Source: Amycolatopsis granulosa | GTDB taxonomy: Bacteria; Actinomycetota; Actinomycetes; Mycobacteriales; Pseudonocardiaceae | Reading direction: 5' to 3' | Length of the DNA: 64,000 nucleotides | NCBI RefSeq assembly: GCF_011758745.1 | Contig: NZ_JAANOV010000001.1 | Location: 1,736,001 to 1,800,000 of the forward strand | Shown here: positions 3,651 to 10,998 of the stretch, in pieces | Numbering within the stretch: position 1 is the stretch's first letter | Layout: the number at the start of each line of letters is the position of its first letter | Translations under genes and position numbers: made by a program | Notes under the pieces: generated by a model | What the model saw: the letters and a program-made list of their open reading frames with translations, nothing else | Databases searched by the model: none | Told to the model about the DNA's origin: nothing

Positions 3651-3757
3651 CGATGTTCTCCCTGTGGGAAGTGGGGCGGGCTCTCCATCGGCGCAACACC
3701 GCGCGCACGGCGCTTGTTCCCCTGCCCGGGCATGATTGGATAGCGGGATCACCGAGA

Positions 3758-6352
3758 ATGACAACCGCGAGCGTTTCCGAGGTGCCTGTGCCCGCCCCTA
3801 ATCTGACCCGTGACCAAGCCAAAGAGCGTGCCGAACTGCTCGAGGTCGAGTCCTACGACATCGCCCTCGATCTCACGGACGGTAACGGCGGCCCGGGCGA
3901 GAGAAGCTTCGAGTCGAAGACCACGATCCGGTTCGCCGCCACGAGACCGGGCGCGAGCACGTTCGTCGACATCGTGGCCGGTTCCGTCCGCTCGGCCACG
4001 CTGAACGGCCAGGCGCTCGACGTCTCCGGCTACGTCGAGGACGACGGGATCACACTGCCCGGCCTCGCCGAAACCAACGAGCTGGTCGTCGAGGCGGACT
4101 GCCGCTACATGAACACCGGCGAGGGCCTGCACCGGTTCGTCGACCCGGTCGACGACGCGGTCTACCTGTACACGCAGTTCGAAACGGCCGACGCCAAGCG
4201 CATGTTCGCCTGCTTCGACCAGCCCGACCTCAAGGCCACCTACCGGCTGACGGTCACCGCGCCGAGCGACTGGAAGGTGGTGTCCAACGCGCCGGTGGAA
4301 AGCACCGAGAAGACCGCCGAGGGCGCCACGCGGACGGTGTTCGCGGTGTCCGAGCGCATCTCCACCTACCTGGTCGCGCTGATCGCCGGACCGTACGCGG
4401 AATGGCACGACCAGTACACCGACGAGCACGGCACCATCCCGCTGGGCATCTACTGCCGCGCCTCGCTCGCCGAGCACATGGACGCCGAGCGGCTGTTCAC
4501 CGAGACCAAGCAGGGTTTCGGTTTCTACCACGAGGCGTTCGCCACGCCCTACCCGTTCCGCAAGTACGACCAGTTGTTCGTGCCGGAGTTCAACGCCGGC
4601 GCGATGGAGAACGCGGGCGCGGTGACGTTCCTGGAGGACTACGTCTTCCGCAGCCGCGTCACCCGCTACGCCTACGAGCGGCGCGCCGAGACGCTGCTGC
4701 ACGAGATGGCGCACATGTGGTTCGGGGACCTGGTCACCATGCGCTGGTGGGACGACCTGTGGCTGAACGAGTCGTTCGCGACGTTCGCGAGCGTGCTGGC
4801 GCAGGCCGAGGCCACCGAGTACGAGCACGCCTGGACCAGCTTCGCCAACATCGAGAAGTCCTGGGCCTACCGGCAGGACCAGCTGCCCTCGACGCACCCG
4901 ATCGCGGCCGACATCGTGGACCTGCAGGCGGTCGAGGTGAACTTCGACGGCATCACCTACGCCAAGGGCGCCAGCGTGCTCAAGCAGCTGGTCGCCTACG
5001 TCGGGCTGGAGCACTTCCTGGCCGGGCTGCGGGTGTACTTCGGCAAGCACGCGTGGGGCAACGCGACACTGGCCGACCTGCTCAGCGCGCTGGAGGAGGC
5101 CTCCGGCCGCGACCTGTCCGGCTGGAGCGCGCAGTGGCTGGAGACCACCGGCCTGAACTCGCTGCGACCGGTGTTCGAGACCGATGACGAGGGCCGGTTC
5201 ACCTCCTTCGCCGTGCTGCAGACCGGGGCCAAACCGGGTGCCGGTGAGCTGCGCACACACCGCATCGCGGTCGGCGTGTACGACGACGAGGGCGGCAAGC
5301 TGGTCCGCAAGCAGCGGGTGGAGCTGGACGTCGAGGGCGAGCGCACCGAGGTGCCGGAGCTAACCGGGCAGCCGGCAGGCACACTGGTGCTGGTCAACGA
5401 CGACGACCTGACCTACTGCACGATGCGCCTGGACACCGGTTCGCTCACCACGCTGGTCGACCGGATCGCCGACATCACCGAGCCGCTGCCGCGCACCCTG
5501 TGCTGGTCGGCGGCGTGGGAGATGACCCGCGAGGCCGAACTGAAGGCGCGGGACTTCCTGCAGATCGTGCTGCACGGCATCCACGCGGAGACCGAGGTCG
5601 GTGTCGTGCAGCGGCTGCTGCTGCAGGCGCAGACCGCCTTGAACTCCTACGCGCAGCCGTCGTGGGCGGCGGCGCAGGGCTGGCCGCGGTACACCAGCAC
5701 GCTGCTGGAGCTGGCCCGGGGCGCCGAGCCGGGCTCGGACCACCAGCTGGCGTTCGTCAACTCGCTCACCGGTTCGGTCCTCGACGAGGCGACGCTCGAC
5801 GTGCTGGCCGGCTGGCTCGACGGGTCGAACCCGCTGGAGGGCCTGGTCGTGGACGCGGACCTGCGGTGGCGGTTGCTGAACGCGCTGGTGGCGCACGGCC
5901 GGGCAGCCGACGCGGAGATCGACGCGGAGCTGGCGCGTGACGACACGGCGACGGGCCGTCGCCACGCCGAGCACGCCCGCGCCCTGCGGCCCACCGCCGA
6001 GGCGAAGGCGGAAGCCTGGCAGCGCGCGGTCTACGACGACGACCTGCCGAACGCGATGAGCAACGCCATCATCGGCGGCTTCTCCCACCCGGGGCAGAAG
6101 GACCTGCTCACCGACTACGTGAGCACCTACTTCGCGGCGATCGACGAGGTCTGGTCCCGCCGGTCGAGCGAGCGGGCGCAGCCCACGGTGGTCGGCTTGT
6201 TCCCGGCCTGGGCGGTCGAGCACGCGACCGTCGAGGCCGCCGACGAGTGGCTGGCCGGCGAGCATCCCGCAGCCCTCCGGCGGCTCGTGTCCGAGGGCCG
6301 GGCCGGCATCGTGCGCGCCCTGGCCGCCCGGGAGTTCGACGAGGCCCAGTAG
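3758..6352 (+). CDS. pepN: Aminopeptidase N (M1 metallopeptidase)
   Basis: An 864-residue cytosolic zinc aminopeptidase of the M1 family, homologous to Rv2467. The exopeptidase motif GAMEN is near residue 282 and the zinc site HEMAH near 314, followed by the third ligand Glu in LNESFATF. The C-terminal third is the helical ERAP1-like domain. The start at ATG 3758 (MTTASVSEV) is the first plausible one after the divergent DsbA-fold gene; a GTG at 3783 is an alternative because related proteins often begin just before APNLTRDQA. Short tandem repeats run through the stop codon. Confidence 0.93.
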
Positions 6353-6388
6353 GAAAAGGGCCAGTAGGAAAAGGCCGGTAGGACAGAG
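6346..6388 (+). repeat. Short tandem repeat across the pepN stop codon
   Basis: The unit CCAGTAGGAAAAGG occurs at 6346 and 6361 with a decayed third copy at 6375 (CCGGTAGGACAGAG), period about 15 bp. Each intact copy contains an in-frame-looking TAG. The first TAG is the pepN stop. Confidence 0.6.
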
Positions 6389-6402
6389 CCCAGCGGGAAG
6401 AC

Positions 6403-6430
6403 GGGGCGCCGGCAACCCGGCCGGCGCCCC
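6403..6430. terminator. First hairpin after pepN
   Basis: GGGGCGCCGG (6403-6412) pairs with CCGGCGCCCC (6421-6430) around an 8-base loop. It is followed by A-rich rather than T-rich sequence, so it may act with the next hairpin or only protect the mRNA end. Confidence 0.5.
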
Positions 6431-6449
6431 GGCGCAGAAAAAGGCGCAG

Positions 6450-6487
6450 AAAAGAGGGGCGGCCGCTCACGCGACCGCCCCTCTTTT
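6450..6487. terminator. Bidirectional intrinsic terminator
   Basis: AAAAGAGGGGCGG (6450-6462) pairs with CCGCCCCTCTTTT (6475-6487). The A-tract and T-tract flank the stem, so it works for pepN on the plus strand and for the DUF5130 operon on the minus strand. Confidence 0.9.
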
Positions 6488-6494
6488 CGTGCTT

Positions 6495-6974
6495 CTAGCG
6501 CCGGGAACCAGCCTGGTCGGCCAGCATGCGCAGGCCGGAGACCAGTCCGCCGATGAGGTCGCCCTCCTTGAAGGAGGCGACCATGCTCATCACGGCCAGC
6601 TTCGCGCCGCGGTCCGGGAGGCGCCGCACCGCCTCCGAACCGGTCACGATCTCCACGACCCGCTCGCCCGGCGACACCGCGATCAGCACCGCGTCCGCGG
6701 AGCTGGGCTTGATCGTCGAGTGCAGCTCCTCGGCGCGGGCGCGGCTCTCGGAGCCGAGTTCGCCGAGGTAGACGCTGAAGTCGATGCCCGTCTCGCGGCT
6801 CGCGAGCGTCAGGGCCTCGTCGAGACGGGCCAGCTGGATGGTGGTGAATGGGCTGGATGGAGCAGCGGGCTCGTACATCCGCGCCACGGAGCGGCGGCCG
6901 GTCGCGGTAATGGCGACCCCGACCTCCTGCTCCTCGTCCGAACCTCGCTGTCGGGTCAGCTCACCAGCTGCCAC
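6495..6974 (-). CDS. DUF5130-family protein (Rv2468c-like)
   Basis: A 159-residue conserved protein of unknown biochemical role, in the position of Rv2468c next to pepN. The start is GTG at 6974 preceded by AGGAGGAG. The central part (about 55-125, DFSVYLGELG ... ADAVLIAVSPGERVVEIVTG) resembles the TPM/repair-of-membrane type alpha/beta fold, which is an inference from pattern only. There are no membrane segments. It overlaps the upstream ctaJ gene by 14 bp, implying one transcript and coupled translation. Confidence 0.8.
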   Translation of the reverse strand: MAAGELTRQRGSDEEQEVGVAITATGRRSVARMYEPAAPSSPFTTIQLARLDEALTLASRETGIDFSVYLGELGSESRARAEELHSTIKPSSADAVLIAVSPGERVVEIVTGSEAVRRLPDRGAKLAVMSMVASFKEGDLIGGLVSGLRMLADQAGSRR

Positions 6975-7230
6975 GGGCTCCTCCTGCCGCCGTCACGCTC
7001 GCGTTCCCGCTCGCGTCCCTGTCCTCCACCGGTTCGCCGGAGTGCGTGTCGTGCACCGTCCCGATACCGTCCGGGTTGCCGCTCCACCACATCGGCGGGT
7101 ACTCCCAGGCCTGCCCGGGCCGGTAGCGCGGCGTGCCGGTCAGCTTCGACCGCAGGGTGAGCAGGGCGATCACCCCGTAGATCGCGGCCGGGATCAGCGC
7201 GAAGATCAGGATCGTCTCTCCGATGTTCAC
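6961..7230 (-). CDS. ctaJ: aa3-type cytochrome oxidase subunit CtaJ
   Basis: An 89-residue protein with one N-terminal membrane helix (about residues 6-26, ILIFALIPAAIYGVIALLT) followed by a hydrophilic tail containing the conserved YRPGQAWEYPPMWWSGNPDG segment. CtaJ is a small accessory subunit seen in the mycobacterial CIII2CIV2 respiratory supercomplex; its gene lies near pepN in M. smegmatis. The assignment rests on the motif and the neighbourhood. It is first in an operon with the DUF5130 gene. Confidence 0.82.
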   Translation of the reverse strand: MNIGETILIFALIPAAIYGVIALLTLRSKLTGTPRYRPGQAWEYPPMWWSGNPDGIGTVHDTHSGEPVEDRDASGNASVTAAGGARGSW

Positions 7231-7402
7231 GTCAGCAGGGTAGCCCGGCCGGCCCGGACGCGCCGCAGCCGGTCACGACCGCTCCTCGCCGCCGGGCGGC
7301 CGTCCGCCGAGCGTCGTGCCGGCGTTGGCGCGATGGGCTGAACAGCGGTCCAACGAAAGGTTGCAACTCAACGTACAGCCGGCCGTACCCGGCGCTGTCG
7401 CC

Positions 7403-7431
7403 TTGTTCACCACGGCAGTTCCTCGTAGCTT
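7403..7431 (+). promoter_or_regulatory. Putative promoter of the GTRVT-repeat gene
   Basis: TTGTTC (7403-7408) and TAGCTT (7426-7431) are separated by exactly 17 bp. This predicts an mRNA start near 7438 and a leader of about 65 bases. Confidence 0.45.
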
Positions 7432-7504
7432 TTTCACCTGTACGGGCCTTGCGCCCCGCTCCCCTTCCCCATGAGTAATCGCACAGGTCCCGGGAGGACT
7501 CATC

Positions 7505-7810
7505 ATGAATCTGCTTCGTACCCTCGCTCAGACCAACGACGGGCACGCTCAGTCACTGATCGACACGTCCAGCGCCTGCACCACCCGGGGCACGCGTGTG
7601 ACCCGCGGCACTCGCGTCACCGCCGGTACGCGCGTCACCCGGGGGACGAGGGTCACGCGCGGCACCCGGGTGACCGCCGGCACCCGCGTCACGCGAGGGA
7701 CCAGAGTCACCCGTGGCACCCGGGTCACCGCGGGTACCCGGGTGACCCGCGGCACCCGCGTTACCCGGGGTACGCGGGTCACCAGCGGTACTCGCGTCAC
7801 CGCCGCCTGA
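7505..7810 (+). CDS. Small cationic protein of 12 GTRVT hexapeptide repeats
   Basis: A 101-residue protein with no family I recognise. ATG at 7505 is preceded by CGGGAGGACTCATC, a strong ribosome-binding site. Residues 1-28 form a unique head containing the only cysteine (C25). Residues 29-100 are twelve uninterrupted copies of GTRVT plus a sixth residue following the order R-A-R repeatedly (R,A,R,R,A,R,R,A,R,R,S,A), an 18-residue super-period. Codons differ between copies, yet the protein does not: Arg is CGT, CGC, CGG, AGG or AGA, and Gly, Thr and Val also vary. That argues for selection on this frame. The 18-residue period equals one coil of a left-handed beta-helix (three hexapeptides), so a small beta-solenoid is possible (inference). 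No signal peptide is seen. It is flanked by its own promoter and terminator. Confidence 0.75.
   Translation: MNLLRTLAQTNDGHAQSLIDTSSACTTRGTRVTRGTRVTAGTRVTRGTRVTRGTRVTAGTRVTRGTRVTRGTRVTAGTRVTRGTRVTRGTRVTSGTRVTAA
7589..7804 (+). repeat. 12 x 18-bp coding repeat (GTRVTx)
   Basis: Twelve in-frame 18-bp units with a 54-bp super-period. Units share the encoded peptide but differ at many third positions and at Arg first positions (CGN versus AGR in units 4 and 7), so this is an old, selected array rather than a fresh expansion. Confidence 0.9.
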
Positions 7811-7847
7811 CGGCCCGGACCACCACCGAGACCCACCAGGTCGGAAA

Positions 7848-7874
7848 GCCCCGGCTCACCAGGACAGCCGGGGC
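7848..7874. terminator. Hairpin between convergent genes
   Basis: GCCCCGGCT (7848-7856) pairs perfectly with AGCCGGGGC (7866-7874) around 9 bases, between the repeat gene and the HNH gene, both of which end here. Confidence 0.6.
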
Positions 7875-7888
7875 ACCGGGGTCCCGGC

Positions 7889-8401
7889 TCAGGCCGCCAC
7901 ACCCAGGTAGGGCTGCCACAACGGATCCGCGTCGCCCGAGTGCACCAGCAGCCGCCAGTGCGGGCCGCGCGGCGCGGTCGGCACGACCCGGAGCCGCCAG
8001 CCCAGCTCCTCGAGGAGCCGGTCGGCCTTGCGGTGATTGCACTTCGCGCAGCACGCGACGCAGTTCTGCCAGCTGTGCGGGCCGCCCCGGCTTCGGGGCA
8101 GCACGTGGTCGATCGTCTCGGCCCGGCCGCCGCAGTAGGCGCACCGGTAGCGGTCCCGGTGCATGAGCCCCGCCCGCGTCAGCGGCACCTGCGCCCGGTA
8201 GGGCACCCGCACGAAGGTGGACAACCGGATCACCGACGGCACGGGCAGCGACAACGTCGCCGCGTGCAGCGTCAGCCCGGCCGGATCGCCGTGCACGACC
8301 TCCGCCTTCCCGCACATGACCAGCACCACGGCCCGCCGCAGCGGAAGCGCGGTCAGCGGTTCGAACGTGGCGTTGAGCAGCAGCACACGCCGCCTGCCCA
8401 T
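7889..8401 (-). CDS. HNH endonuclease family protein (Rv2469c-like)
   Basis: A 170-residue protein with an HNH nuclease domain: CAYCGG, then TIDHVLPRSRGGPHSWQNCVACCAKCN with paired cysteines that would bind a structural zinc and the His-Asn-His core. The N-terminal half (RRVLLLNATFEPLTALPLRRAVVLV) is typical of the conserved actinobacterial group represented by Rv2469c. Substrate is unknown. The start at 8401 is set by that conserved N-terminus; the frame stays open upstream and the Rv2469c protein is longer, so an earlier start is possible. Confidence 0.82.
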   Translation of the reverse strand: MGRRRVLLLNATFEPLTALPLRRAVVLVMCGKAEVVHGDPAGLTLHAATLSLPVPSVIRLSTFVRVPYRAQVPLTRAGLMHRDRYRCAYCGGRAETIDHVLPRSRGGPHSWQNCVACCAKCNHRKADRLLEELGWRLRVVPTAPRGPHWRLLVHSGDADPLWQPYLGVAA

Positions 8402-8759
8402 GGCGAACGCCCCGGGGGTGCCGGAACCAGCCGGATCCCGCCCTCTACGCTGACCCGAGGGTCGGCTCACGCGGCCACCTCGGGGGGGTGGCCCACTGGG
8501 CTGCGGACCGCCGCCGGGCGGCCCCTGACCCTGGTGAGCGCACAGGGCTACCTCCGGCGCCTGCCCGCCCACCGTCTGGTCGGGGGCGCCGAGGGGGATC
8601 GGTTGTCGGTCTGGCACTCGACCACCTCCACCGGTGCAGCCATAGTCGACCACAGATCACACCCGATGCGCACCTGTGTTAGAAGACGTGTCCTGTGAAA
8701 TTCGTTCGACGTCCGCGTGACGACGGGCGAAAACGGCCAGAAAGGGATCCCCGAACCCC
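8402..8759. other. Divergent intergenic region, 358 bp
   Basis: It separates the HNH gene (minus) from the MscS gene (plus). No convincing gene is present; short open frames here lack ribosome-binding sites and family motifs. It presumably holds both promoters, but I cannot pick clear hexamers. Confidence 0.5.
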
Positions 8760-9719
8760 GTGACGCCGCTGCTCGACCAAGCACCCGAGTGCATCAACCA
8801 GACCGGTACCTGGTGCTATCAAGTGTTCCAGATCACCCACAACGAGTGGCTGGCGGCCTCCGCCAACTGGCTGATCGCCAAGCCACTGACGATCATCCTG
8901 ATTCTCCTGGTCGCCCTCCTCATCCGGTTCGCGCTGCACAAGCTGATCGACCGGATCACCACGATGCCGCGGAGCAACGGCGGCAAGCTGCCCACGATCC
9001 TGCGCCCCCTGCGCGAACGCGCCCCCGACATCCTCGGCCCGGTCGTGGCCGAACGGCGCCGCCAGCGCGCCAAGACGATCGGGTCGGTGCTGAAATCGCT
9101 GACCTCGTTCGTCGTGCTCGGTCTCGCGGCCATCTACATCCTCGGCGAGCTGGGCATCAACCTCGGCCCGCTGCTCGCCTCGGCCGGTGTGGTCGGAATC
9201 GCACTGGCCTTCGGCGCGCAGAACCTGGTCAAGGACTTCCTCTCCGGCATGTTCATGATGCTGGAGGACCAGTACGGCGTCGGCGACGTCGTGGACATCG
9301 GGCCGGCCACCGGCACGGTGGAGTCCGTGGGCCTGCGCATCACCACGATCCGGGACGTCAAGGGCACCGTGTGGTACGTCCGCAACGGCGAGGTCACCCG
9401 GGTCGGCAACTCCAGCCAGGGCTACGCGATCGCCCTGGTCGACGTGCCGCTGAGCTACAGCGCCGATGTGGAACGCGCCACAGCCGTGCTGACCGAGGCC
9501 GCGCACGCGGCCGCCGCCACCGAGTCCCTGGCGGTCGACCTGCTCGAGGAGCCGGAGGTGCTCGGCGTGGAAAAGGTCACGCCGGAGACCATCGAGCTGC
9601 GGCTGACGGTCAAGGTGCGGCCGGGCCGCCAGTGGGCCGTGCAGCGCCAGTTGCGCGCGGCATGCCTCACGGCGCTGGAGGAATCCGGCGTCCTGTCCGC
9701 CACGGCCACGGCACAATGA
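8760..9719 (+). CDS. Small-conductance mechanosensitive channel (MscS family)
   Basis: A 319-residue membrane channel that would release solutes during hypo-osmotic stress. About three membrane helices are visible: 43-60, 110-130, and the pore-lining TM3 around 140-170 ([28 protein letters not shown]), which has the Ala/Gly packing typical of MscS. The beta domain follows ([42 protein letters not shown]). The start is GTG at 8760, with AAAGGG rather far upstream, so a slightly different start is possible. glbO follows after 13 bp, suggesting co-transcription. Confidence 0.9.
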
Positions 9720-9732
9720 GGGGGTGACCGGT

Positions 9733-10116
9733 ATGAGTGAGCCCCAGTCCTTCTACGACGCCGTCGGTGGCGAACCGACGTTCCGCAAGATCGTCGCCCG
9801 GTTCTACGCCGAGGTGGCGCAGGACGAGGTGCTCCGGCCGCTGTACCCGGAGGAGGACCTCGGGCCGGCCGAGGACCGGTTGCGGCTGTTCCTGATGCAG
9901 TACTGGGGCGGCCCGCACACCTACTCCGACCAGCGCGGACACCCGCGCCTGCGGATGCGGCACGCGCCGTTCAAGATCGGGCCGATCGAGCGGGACGCGT
10001 GGCTGCGCGCGATGCGCGTCGCCGTCGACGAGGCCGGGCTGCCGGAGCCGCTGGAGACCCAGCTGTGGAACTACCTCGAGATGGCCGCGCACAGCATGAT
10101 GAACTCCTGGGTCTGA
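9733..10116 (+). CDS. glbO: Truncated haemoglobin GlbO (group II)
   Basis: A 127-residue 2-on-2 haemoglobin homologous to Rv2470, implicated in oxygen handling and redox protection near the respiratory membrane. Visible key residues are Tyr in RFYAEV (B10), the Tyr of RPLYPEEDL region (CD1), proximal His in RMRHAPF, and Trp in RDAWLRAM (G8). The start is ATG 9733 because GAGGGG lies 9 bases upstream; GTG at 9724 would overlap that site. Nearly every position of [24 protein letters not shown] is conserved with the mycobacterial protein. Confidence 0.95.
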
Positions 10117-10123
10117 CCGGGTT

Positions 10124-10150
10124 CCCGTGCCCGTCCGGGACGGGCACGGG
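10124..10150. terminator. Palindromic terminator between convergent genes
   Basis: The 27-bp stretch CCCGTGCCCGTCC/GGGACGGGCACGGG is a near-perfect palindrome giving an 11-bp GC-rich stem between the glbO and LLM stop codons. There is no T-tract. Confidence 0.65.
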
Positions 10151-10158
10151 CTCCGGCG

Positions 10159-10998
10159 TCAGCCCAGCTTCGCCAGCTCGTTCGCCAGCGGCTCCAGCAC
10201 CTCGGGGGTGTGCGGCGGCGGCAGGTAGACGATCGCCAGGTCCAGGCCCTGCTCGCCGAGCGCGGCGGCCTCGTCCGCGACCTTGGCGTAGTCGCGGTCG
10301 GCGCCCAGCCGCACGTGGCTGGACAGCGTGATCTCCTTCGGGTCACGGCCGATGTCCGCGCAGTGGGCGTGCAGCACGTCGCGCTTGCGGGCGAACTCCG
10401 CCGCGGTACCGCCGACGAAGTTCCAGTGCTGCGCGAACCGGGCGGCGGTGCGCAGGGTCCGCTTCTCGCCACTGCCGCCGATGCAGATCGGCGGGTGCGG
10501 GCGCTGGATGCCCTTCGGCTCGTTGCGCGCCTCGGTGAGCTGGTAGTACTCGCCCTGGAAGGTGGTCGTCTCCTGCGTCAGCAGGCCGACGAGCACCTCG
10601 CACGCCTCCTCGAACCGGTCGCTGCGCTGCTTGACGGTGCCCAGCTCCATGCCGTAGGCGCCGGACTCCTCCTCGTTCCAGCCCGCGCCGATGCCGATCT
10701 CCAGCCGCCCGCCGGAGACGATGTCGAGCGTGGCGGCCATGTTGGCCAGCAGCGCCGGGTGCCGGTAGTGAATACCGCTCACCAGGGTGCCGAGCCGCAG
10801 CCGCCGCGTGGCCTGCGCGAGCGCGGTCAGCGTCACCCACCCCTCCAGGCACGGCCCGGTCGGATCGGAGAAGATCGGGTAGAAGTGGTCGAAGGTCCAG
10901 CCGGACTCGAAGGTCTCGATGTCGTCGGCCGCCCGCCACACGGCGAGCATGTCCGGCCACTCGGTGTTCTGCGGTGAGGTCTTGAACGCGAAGCGCAT
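10159..10998 (-). CDS. LLM-class (probably F420-dependent) oxidoreductase
   Basis: A 279-residue TIM-barrel flavin/F420 oxidoreductase of the luciferase-like superfamily. Typical segments are FESGWTFDHFYPIFSDPTGPCLEGW near the N-terminus, RLRLGTLVSGIHYRHPALLANMAATLDIVSGGRLEIGIGAGW (about 67-108) and PPICIGGSGEKRTLRTAARFAQHWN. Members with this pattern in mycothiol-producing actinomycetes usually use F420, which is a family inference; substrate is unknown. The ATG is preceded by TAGGGT at 6 bases, so the mRNA is probably leaderless, and a perfect palindrome overlaps the promoter. Confidence 0.85.
   Translation of the reverse strand: MRFAFKTSPQNTEWPDMLAVWRAADDIETFESGWTFDHFYPIFSDPTGPCLEGWVTLTALAQATRRLRLGTLVSGIHYRHPALLANMAATLDIVSGGRLEIGIGAGWNEEESGAYGMELGTVKQRSDRFEEACEVLVGLLTQETTTFQGEYYQLTEARNEPKGIQRPHPPICIGGSGEKRTLRTAARFAQHWNFVGGTAAEFARKRDVLHAHCADIGRDPKEITLSSHVRLGADRDYAKVADEAAALGEQGLDLAIVYLPPPHTPEVLEPLANELAKLG

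Follow-up and report, generated by a model that had tools for sequence, protein, structure and literature searches.

What keeps one pentapeptide identical in every copy along a short bacterial protein, and what might such a protein do? The gene that raises this question lies in the 64,000-nucleotide stretch of Amycolatopsis granulosa DNA analyzed here (the window), which comes from a genome in a single contig of 5.62 Mb, and it is a plus-strand open reading frame at 7505–7810 encoding 101 amino acids. An earlier note on the window had described twelve perfect GTRVT copies behind a 28-residue head with one cysteine, and all of these are present as claimed. Its name for them, "GTRVT hexapeptides", holds in part: the GTRVT copies are real, but the unit is a pentapeptide plus one freer residue, and in the window these linker residues read, in order, R A R R A R R A R R S. 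The features of the locus are as follows.

6961–7230, minus strand: ctaJ, aa3-type cytochrome oxidase subunit, divergent neighbor and site marker (NCBIfam NF050118, 96.8 bits against a cut-off of 43)
7403–7431, plus strand: promoter, TTGTTC (7403–7408), 17-nt spacer and TAGCTT (7426–7431), from family comparison
7432–7453, plus strand: 22-nt element TTTCACCTGTACGGGCCTTGCG at the expected transcript start, from family comparison
7492–7497, plus strand: ribosome-binding site GGGAGG, from the sequence and from GGAG columns at least 90% conserved in an alignment of 52 sequences
7505–7588, plus strand: head, residues 1–28, one Cys, from the sequence and a comparison of relatives' first 20 residues
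7589–7801, plus strand: array of 12 exact GTRVT units with single-residue linkers R, A or S, from the sequence and family-wide counts
7802–7810, plus strand: C-terminal Ala-Ala and stop, a possible di-alanine Clp degron (LAA in many relatives), from sequence, comparison and degron literature
about 7839–7889, no strand assigned: strong hairpin lacking a T-run, between convergent genes (−27.4 kcal/mol)
7889–8653, minus strand: HNH endonuclease gene, start uncertain, convergent neighbor and site marker (Pfam HNH_5, 44.4 bits against a cut-off of 27.5)

The codons of the array indicate that the peptide, not the DNA, is what is held constant. In the window gene each of the 12 units has a 15-mer of its own, the Arg codons including AGG and AGA, and pS is 0.59 compared to a pN of 0.018, a value that arises solely from indirect paths between CGN and AGR codons because the peptide is identical. 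We then counted units, defined as at least three of five residues matching GTRVT, in 96 non-redundant genes (including L091, a different kind of protein, and leaving out L094, which has a frame break). GTRVT was exact in 1445 of 1471 units, written in 271 different 15-mers, with 6 to 51 exact copies per gene, and the medians over genes were 0.56 for pS and 0.010 for pN (largest pN, 0.12). Distinct spellings summed within genes came to 1242 compared to a mean of 1340 under independent codon draws, indicating that synonymous sites are near saturation and the peptide is frozen; the gene rows are related, so these counts are not independent. Chance is excluded as the source of GTRVT uniformity. 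The array is also more conserved than the head, whose first 20 residues had a mean pairwise identity of 62% in 19 genes of the genus group. These comparisons argue, as the earlier note had, for a translated plus-strand product with strong protein-level selection on every copy, and hence for a gene that matters. The note had named freely varying repeat peptides and broken frames as evidence to the contrary; the repeat peptides are not free to vary, and 96 of the 97 GTRVT genes that were read have an open frame. The remaining gene, L094 (Saccharomonospora sp. CUA-673, 5900–6437), has a break inside the array, split over two frames, that may be natural decay or a sequencing error. Adjacent units were identical 22 times compared to a permutation mean of 38, and 1 of 500 permutations was as low. 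We rejected active codon scrambling as the cause, because the number of distinct spellings falls below that of independent draws, and block duplication accounts equally well for the scarcity of identical neighbors.

Conserved expression signals precede the gene. A simple consensus scan found no promoter at the window gene, but TTGNNN-17-TANNNT was present in 125 of 132 family upstream regions and an 18-nt spacer in two more (127 of 132 in total), which backs the gene's own −35 and −10 boxes as first proposed; the proposed ribosome-binding site is likewise borne out by the conserved GGAG columns. The 22-nt element had no mismatches in 65 of 133 scored upstream regions and at most five in 126 of 133, a set in which 38 genes had been selected for at most five mismatches, and its start lay 70–75 nt from the ATG in 127 of 132 cases and 53 nt in the other five. 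All 25 loci fetched by protein query (L171–L195) had both an array and the element with four or fewer mismatches. In its own genome the element occurs once, allowing up to one mismatch, and thus offers no regulon clue. A terminator of the gene's own had also been claimed; the scan found none downstream, and the hairpin in the intergenic space has no T-run.

The seven neighbors of the window gene (3653–10998) are pepN, DUF5130, ctaJ, HNH, MscS, globin and an F420-type oxidoreductase gene. An HNH gene was convergent downstream, within 1.5 kb, in 131 of 134 arrays, 17 of the 134 having been fetched via the HNH gene itself; the three exceptions were L091, the other kind of protein, L108, where the contig ends, and L073, where no such gene was found. 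Upstream, ctaJ or DUF5130 was divergent in 120 of 134 arrays, and the remaining 14 loci span less than 2 kb on that side. Gene order therefore indicates that the array gene sits at one fixed chromosomal place in Amycolatopsis and its relatives, and we read it as mostly vertically inherited.

Matches to the window protein were found in each of the 19 genus-group genomes searched (its own counted), in 59 of 150 family genomes (18 of 46 genera), in 39 of 348 genomes of the order, 38 of them in the family, and in 7 of 394 of the class, three of them in the family. Outside the family, the one match from the order (L196) is a collagen-like repeat, and the four from the class, two repeat frames described below aside, contain no array of the GTRVT kind; nor do the matches L127, L128, L132, L167 and L168, or L169, a second place in one family genome. 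Among GTDB contigs, 111 stretches encode a relative, and the best named matches are Amycolatopsis records; by title, the best 80 of the 111, which we kept, are mostly Amycolatopsis, with Prauserella, Saccharomonospora, Actinophytocola, Kibdelosporangium, Haloechinothrix, Actinokineospora and a few others. No match was found in phages or plasmids, which is weak evidence as the low-complexity filter was on. Long open frames in other actinomycetes include a run of RGTRLT (L125) and runs of STRLP/RTRLA (L129), which we provisionally took to be unrelated repeat-coding DNA. A contig labelled Rhodococcus rhodnii NRRL B-16535 (L092) has an array and HNH protein that group with Kibdelosporangium, and its label may be wrong.

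What occupies the site in genomes lacking a GTRVT match? We fetched the HNH site in 27 genomes: 22 from the family without a match, one with a weak match and four outside the family, the last with no array at the HNH locus. Among the 23 family genomes, picked for an absent or near-absent GTRVT match, 17 had the element together with an array built on a different pentapeptide, and five had no array within the locus (L144, L145, L148, L154 and L158; the HNH protein of L158 is just 55% identical, so its site may differ), which suggests, for this selected set, that the gene is dispensable in some genomes. The last, L153, has a GIRVT array (complement, from about 889) beside the HNH gene and no 22-nt element, possibly because it arose separately or because its upstream region was rearranged.

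In these other genera the same site, promoter and 22-nt element accompany arrays of SVRIT, GVRIS, GTRIT, GVRIH, GVRIE or GVRVT, near-uniform within each gene. An SVRIT query matched 37 of 130 family genomes (16 of 46 genera), and 25 of the resulting loci were read. Combining the HNH-site loci, L111, L113 and the SVRIT-query loci, with at most five mismatches in the element and L153 left out, gave 38 distinct genes: 14 SVRIT, 15 GVRIS, three GTRIT, two GVRIH and one each of GVRIE, GVRVT, GVRVN and GTRVT. The motif was exact in 245 of 249 units for SVRIT (14 genes), 308 of 315 for GVRIS (15 genes), 65 of 66 for GTRIT (three genes), 22 of 23 for GVRIH (two genes), 19 of 19 for GVRIE and 12 of 12 for GVRVT (one gene each); these units are matches to a loose pattern requiring Arg, which overlooks copies that are more decayed and makes the Arg common to all classes partly a matter of construction. 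Decayed copies do exist, such as GVHIH and GVRSH (L137), GLRLS (L147) and GVPVT. On a tree of the HNH proteins (124 rows) in which 65 of 121 inner branches are weak, the array rows show nine motif changes among eight motif labels, or 12 changes if absence is counted as a state. The sequences show genes each locked to one motif, with whole arrays switching between genera, and a consensus of [GS][TVI]R[VI]x in 3 to 51 near-identical copies on a variable backbone.

The backbone varies in both spacing and charge. Linkers in GTRVT genes range from 0 to 16 residues, 1272 of 1375 being one residue; in SVRIT and GVRIS genes most linkers are 3–4 residues long, giving periods of 8–9, and SVRIT linkers span 1–27 residues in four genes. 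The 18-residue super-period noted earlier is true of the window and merely a preference in the pooled set, where linker i equals linker i+3 in 473 of 1087 comparisons, with 328 of 1279 at lag 1, 224 of 1183 at lag 2, 340 of 991 at lag 4 and 333 of 895 at lag 5. In ten proteins for which it was computed, net charge varied between +65 and −10. Across these sequences, spacing and net charge are free.

Uniform copies combined with free spacing, free charge and array-wide switches suggest that the motif is recognized in trans or by its own kind, and the variable spacing favors a short linear motif over a fixed solenoid. We tentatively prefer, at a confidence that falls somewhat short of probable, a reading in which the protein is a multivalent ligand with a short life ended by Clp. 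A single partner protein, encoded elsewhere, would read the motif and co-evolve with it; the array would serve as a multivalent ligand, hub or sponge holding many partner molecules at once; and Clp proteolysis would keep the array protein short-lived, so that, we propose, its amount would follow the conserved promoter.

The case for Clp comes from the C terminus. LAA ended 48 of 115 array proteins and AA 69 of 115, compared to 0 and 7, respectively, of 310 coding-like ORFs from the same loci; 46 of 115 end otherwise than AA, and the tail is thus not universal. One locus, L112, had been dropped from this set as a copy of L134. Among the 38 other-motif genes (19 of which are also among the 115), 26 end in AA and 21 in LA[AG]. 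The genome's own tmRNA tag is AKTNSQRDFALAA, ending in SQRDFALAA, and relatives' ends such as QSDYALAA, QSDFSLAA, RSEYALAA and RGDFALAA resemble it. In Streptomyces, ClgR, Lon and sigma-AntA are targeted to Clp by a pair of alanines at the C terminus, and LAA is also described there as a Clp signal (PMC9775585); the SsrA tag is described as a working Clp signal in mycobacteria (PMC5352834). Degron-like ends point to a short life, and we infer that the arrays may be degraded by Clp through this candidate degron. Several observations stand against the multivalent-ligand reading: some copies are decayed, the L094 frame is broken, five of the 23 selected family genomes have no array, and the tail is missing from the 46 proteins noted above. 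In addition, the predicted beta fold and Pfam scores of one SVRIT relative (L141) and the Hexapep score of a GVRIH relative favor a structural role.

That structural alternative, which we regard as doubtful and yet the best of the rivals, is a self-assembling beta structure (a beta-solenoid, amyloid-like stack or fiber) in which V/I and R stack on like residues. Like-on-like stacking would also favor identical copies and whole-array switches, and the alternating x-[VTI]-R-[VI]-x pattern suits it. Two relatives score above the cut-offs of beta-rich Pfam families: L141 exceeds three (DUF2345, 61.2 against 30.7 bits; DUF3540, 29.5 against 27.9; ChapFlgA, 27.0 against 23.8), and the GVRIH relative exceeds that of Hexapep (31 against 27). 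For DUF2345 the GVRIS, GVRIE and GVRIH proteins reached 28.1, 28.7 and 17.5 bits, respectively, the first two falling narrowly short of the cut-off, and the window protein had no match. Hexapep did not match the window protein up to E 1, and the best NCBIfam model gave it 27.4 bits against a cut-off of 207. AlphaFold2 predicted regular strands for L141 (mean pLDDT 73.3, pTM 0.74, three of five models above 71). For the window protein, structure prediction as suggested in the earlier note was of low confidence (five models with mean pLDDT 43.5–64.9; best pTM 0.50, repeats at about 70–75). The models of both proteins had no structural match in the PDB at E ≤ 0.001. A separate search of solved structures gave one match, at E 0.07. 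AlphaFold2 is described as over-predicting beta-solenoids for perfect repeats (PMC11795689). The linkers of 0–16 residues in GTRVT genes also weigh against a regular stack. A constant rung length holds in the window protein and fails across the family, in GTRVT genes and in the four SVRIT genes with linkers of 1–27. The left-handed beta-helix with Arg ladders for binding nucleic acid, wall polymer or ice that had been proposed for the window protein is therefore not supported: spacing varies, other classes have periods of 8–9, charge swings from +65 to −10, and predicted confidence does not exceed a pLDDT of 64.9. Beta structure may be present; a left-handed helix of constant rung is at odds with the variable linkers.

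Could the array instead be a multi-copy peptide precursor, its tail feeding the chain to ClpP to be cut into peptides of one sequence that serve as a signal particular to the lineage, either internal or exported? We consider this unlikely. Such a precursor would be expected to look much like these genes: numerous short copies, nearly identical within one gene and distinct from genus to genus, set apart by spacers of variable length, with an ssrA-like end in many of the proteins. The repeat of 6–9 residues is also near the size of ClpP products. There is, however, no evident cleavage signal between copies, most GTRVT-gene linkers being a single residue, and the seven neighbors at the site include no receptor, exporter or modifying enzyme, RiPP modifying enzymes included. 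Neuropeptide and yeast mating-factor precursors are likewise built of one short peptide repeated many times, the same throughout a gene and varying from lineage to lineage; the arrays at this site differ from them in having, by eye, no signal peptide or cleavage site. A signal of the neuropeptide-precursor type, with a pentapeptide particular to each genus in up to 51 copies, Clp release through the tmRNA-like tag and a co-evolving receptor, seems more doubtful still; if a peptide signal were at work, the motif would switch as a whole array and serve as a lineage password.

An Arg-rich protein that binds nucleic acid or some other polyanion is improbable. The window protein has a pI of 12.0 and a charge of +18.6, eight of the ten proteins are basic and Arg occurs in every motif variant, but two SVRIT relatives with the same type of motif have pI values of 4.6 and 6.0 and a negative charge; we set this reading low because charge is not conserved. 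A function residing in the DNA or RNA, with an incidental peptide, is very improbable, since the near-invariant 22-nt element where transcription is expected to start is outweighed by 271 spellings of one peptide at near-saturated synonymous sites, by the lack of any conserved RNA fold in the 5' region (two pairs, no covariation) and by the absence of Rfam matches below E 0.23 over 6900–8900, where the best hit, a microRNA model matching the repeat, was taken as chance.

The preferred reading of a Clp-degraded multivalent ligand has a partial precedent in CsoS2 of alpha-carboxysomes, described as a repeat scaffold whose (V/I)(T/S)G motifs work multivalently (PMC11365436). Both are multivalent chains with a short repeated motif of similar look (here R-[VI]-[TS]), which in CsoS2 is described as read by a conserved partner (PMC11365436). 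The arrays here differ in being far more uniform, in their degron-like end and in having no microcompartment genes among the seven neighbors. The CsoS2 model matched none of the proteins searched, and a GTRIT relative reached 40.5 bits for CcmN against a cut-off of 100; the analogy suggests a likeness of working rather than membership. ClgR, Lon and sigma-AntA share the C-terminal AA or LAA, but they are regulators or enzymes, whereas the body of the array proteins is the repeat array. Transferase hexapeptide repeats (PF00132, a left-handed beta-helix) share the six-residue period of the GTRVT group, and the GVRIH relative lies just above their cut-off; the window protein does not match, spacing is free and copies are uniform, and the Leu/Ile/Val-Gly pair of those repeats is missing in these arrays. 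DUF2345 (PF10106), which we take to be linked to VgrG, resembles the arrays in the 61-bit score of the SVRIT relative and differs in not matching the window protein, in the varied spacing and in the lack of secretion genes among the seven neighbors.

No curated family in Pfam, NCBIfam, PHROGs or PADLOC fits the whole group. For three proteins, the best PHROGs match had an E of 0.0042 (0.0088 for the window protein) and PADLOC gave no match up to E 0.1. Among the papers listed by literature searches on the motifs, on repeat proteins of the family and on ClpP peptide precursors, judged by titles, there was no description of it, in agreement with the earlier note, which knew of no such family. 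Given this and the combination of features, the array family appears to be new, repeat scaffolds and Clp degrons as such being already known. It is kept in all 19 genus-group genomes searched and in many genera of the family, yet is in none of the four family libraries searched. Array-wide motif switching, frozen copies and free synonymous sites form an unusual signature of strict recognition, and this gives a handle on the putative partner: a GTRVT reader should differ predictably in SVRIT and GVRIS genera. The array proteins may, in addition, bring to light a tmRNA-type degron in native use.

Two of the GTRVT proteins deserve separate mention. On a contig labelled Aeromicrobium (a MAG), L091 (1971–2756) has a signal-peptide-like start by eye and 12 GTRVT copies; its C-terminal part has no Pfam match above cut-off, and neither the 22-nt element nor an HNH neighbor was found, which suggests a secreted use or a mimic of the motif. 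The single protein encoded at L105 (G094) has 51 copies of GTRVT, between which spacers such as ALEN and ALEC recur.
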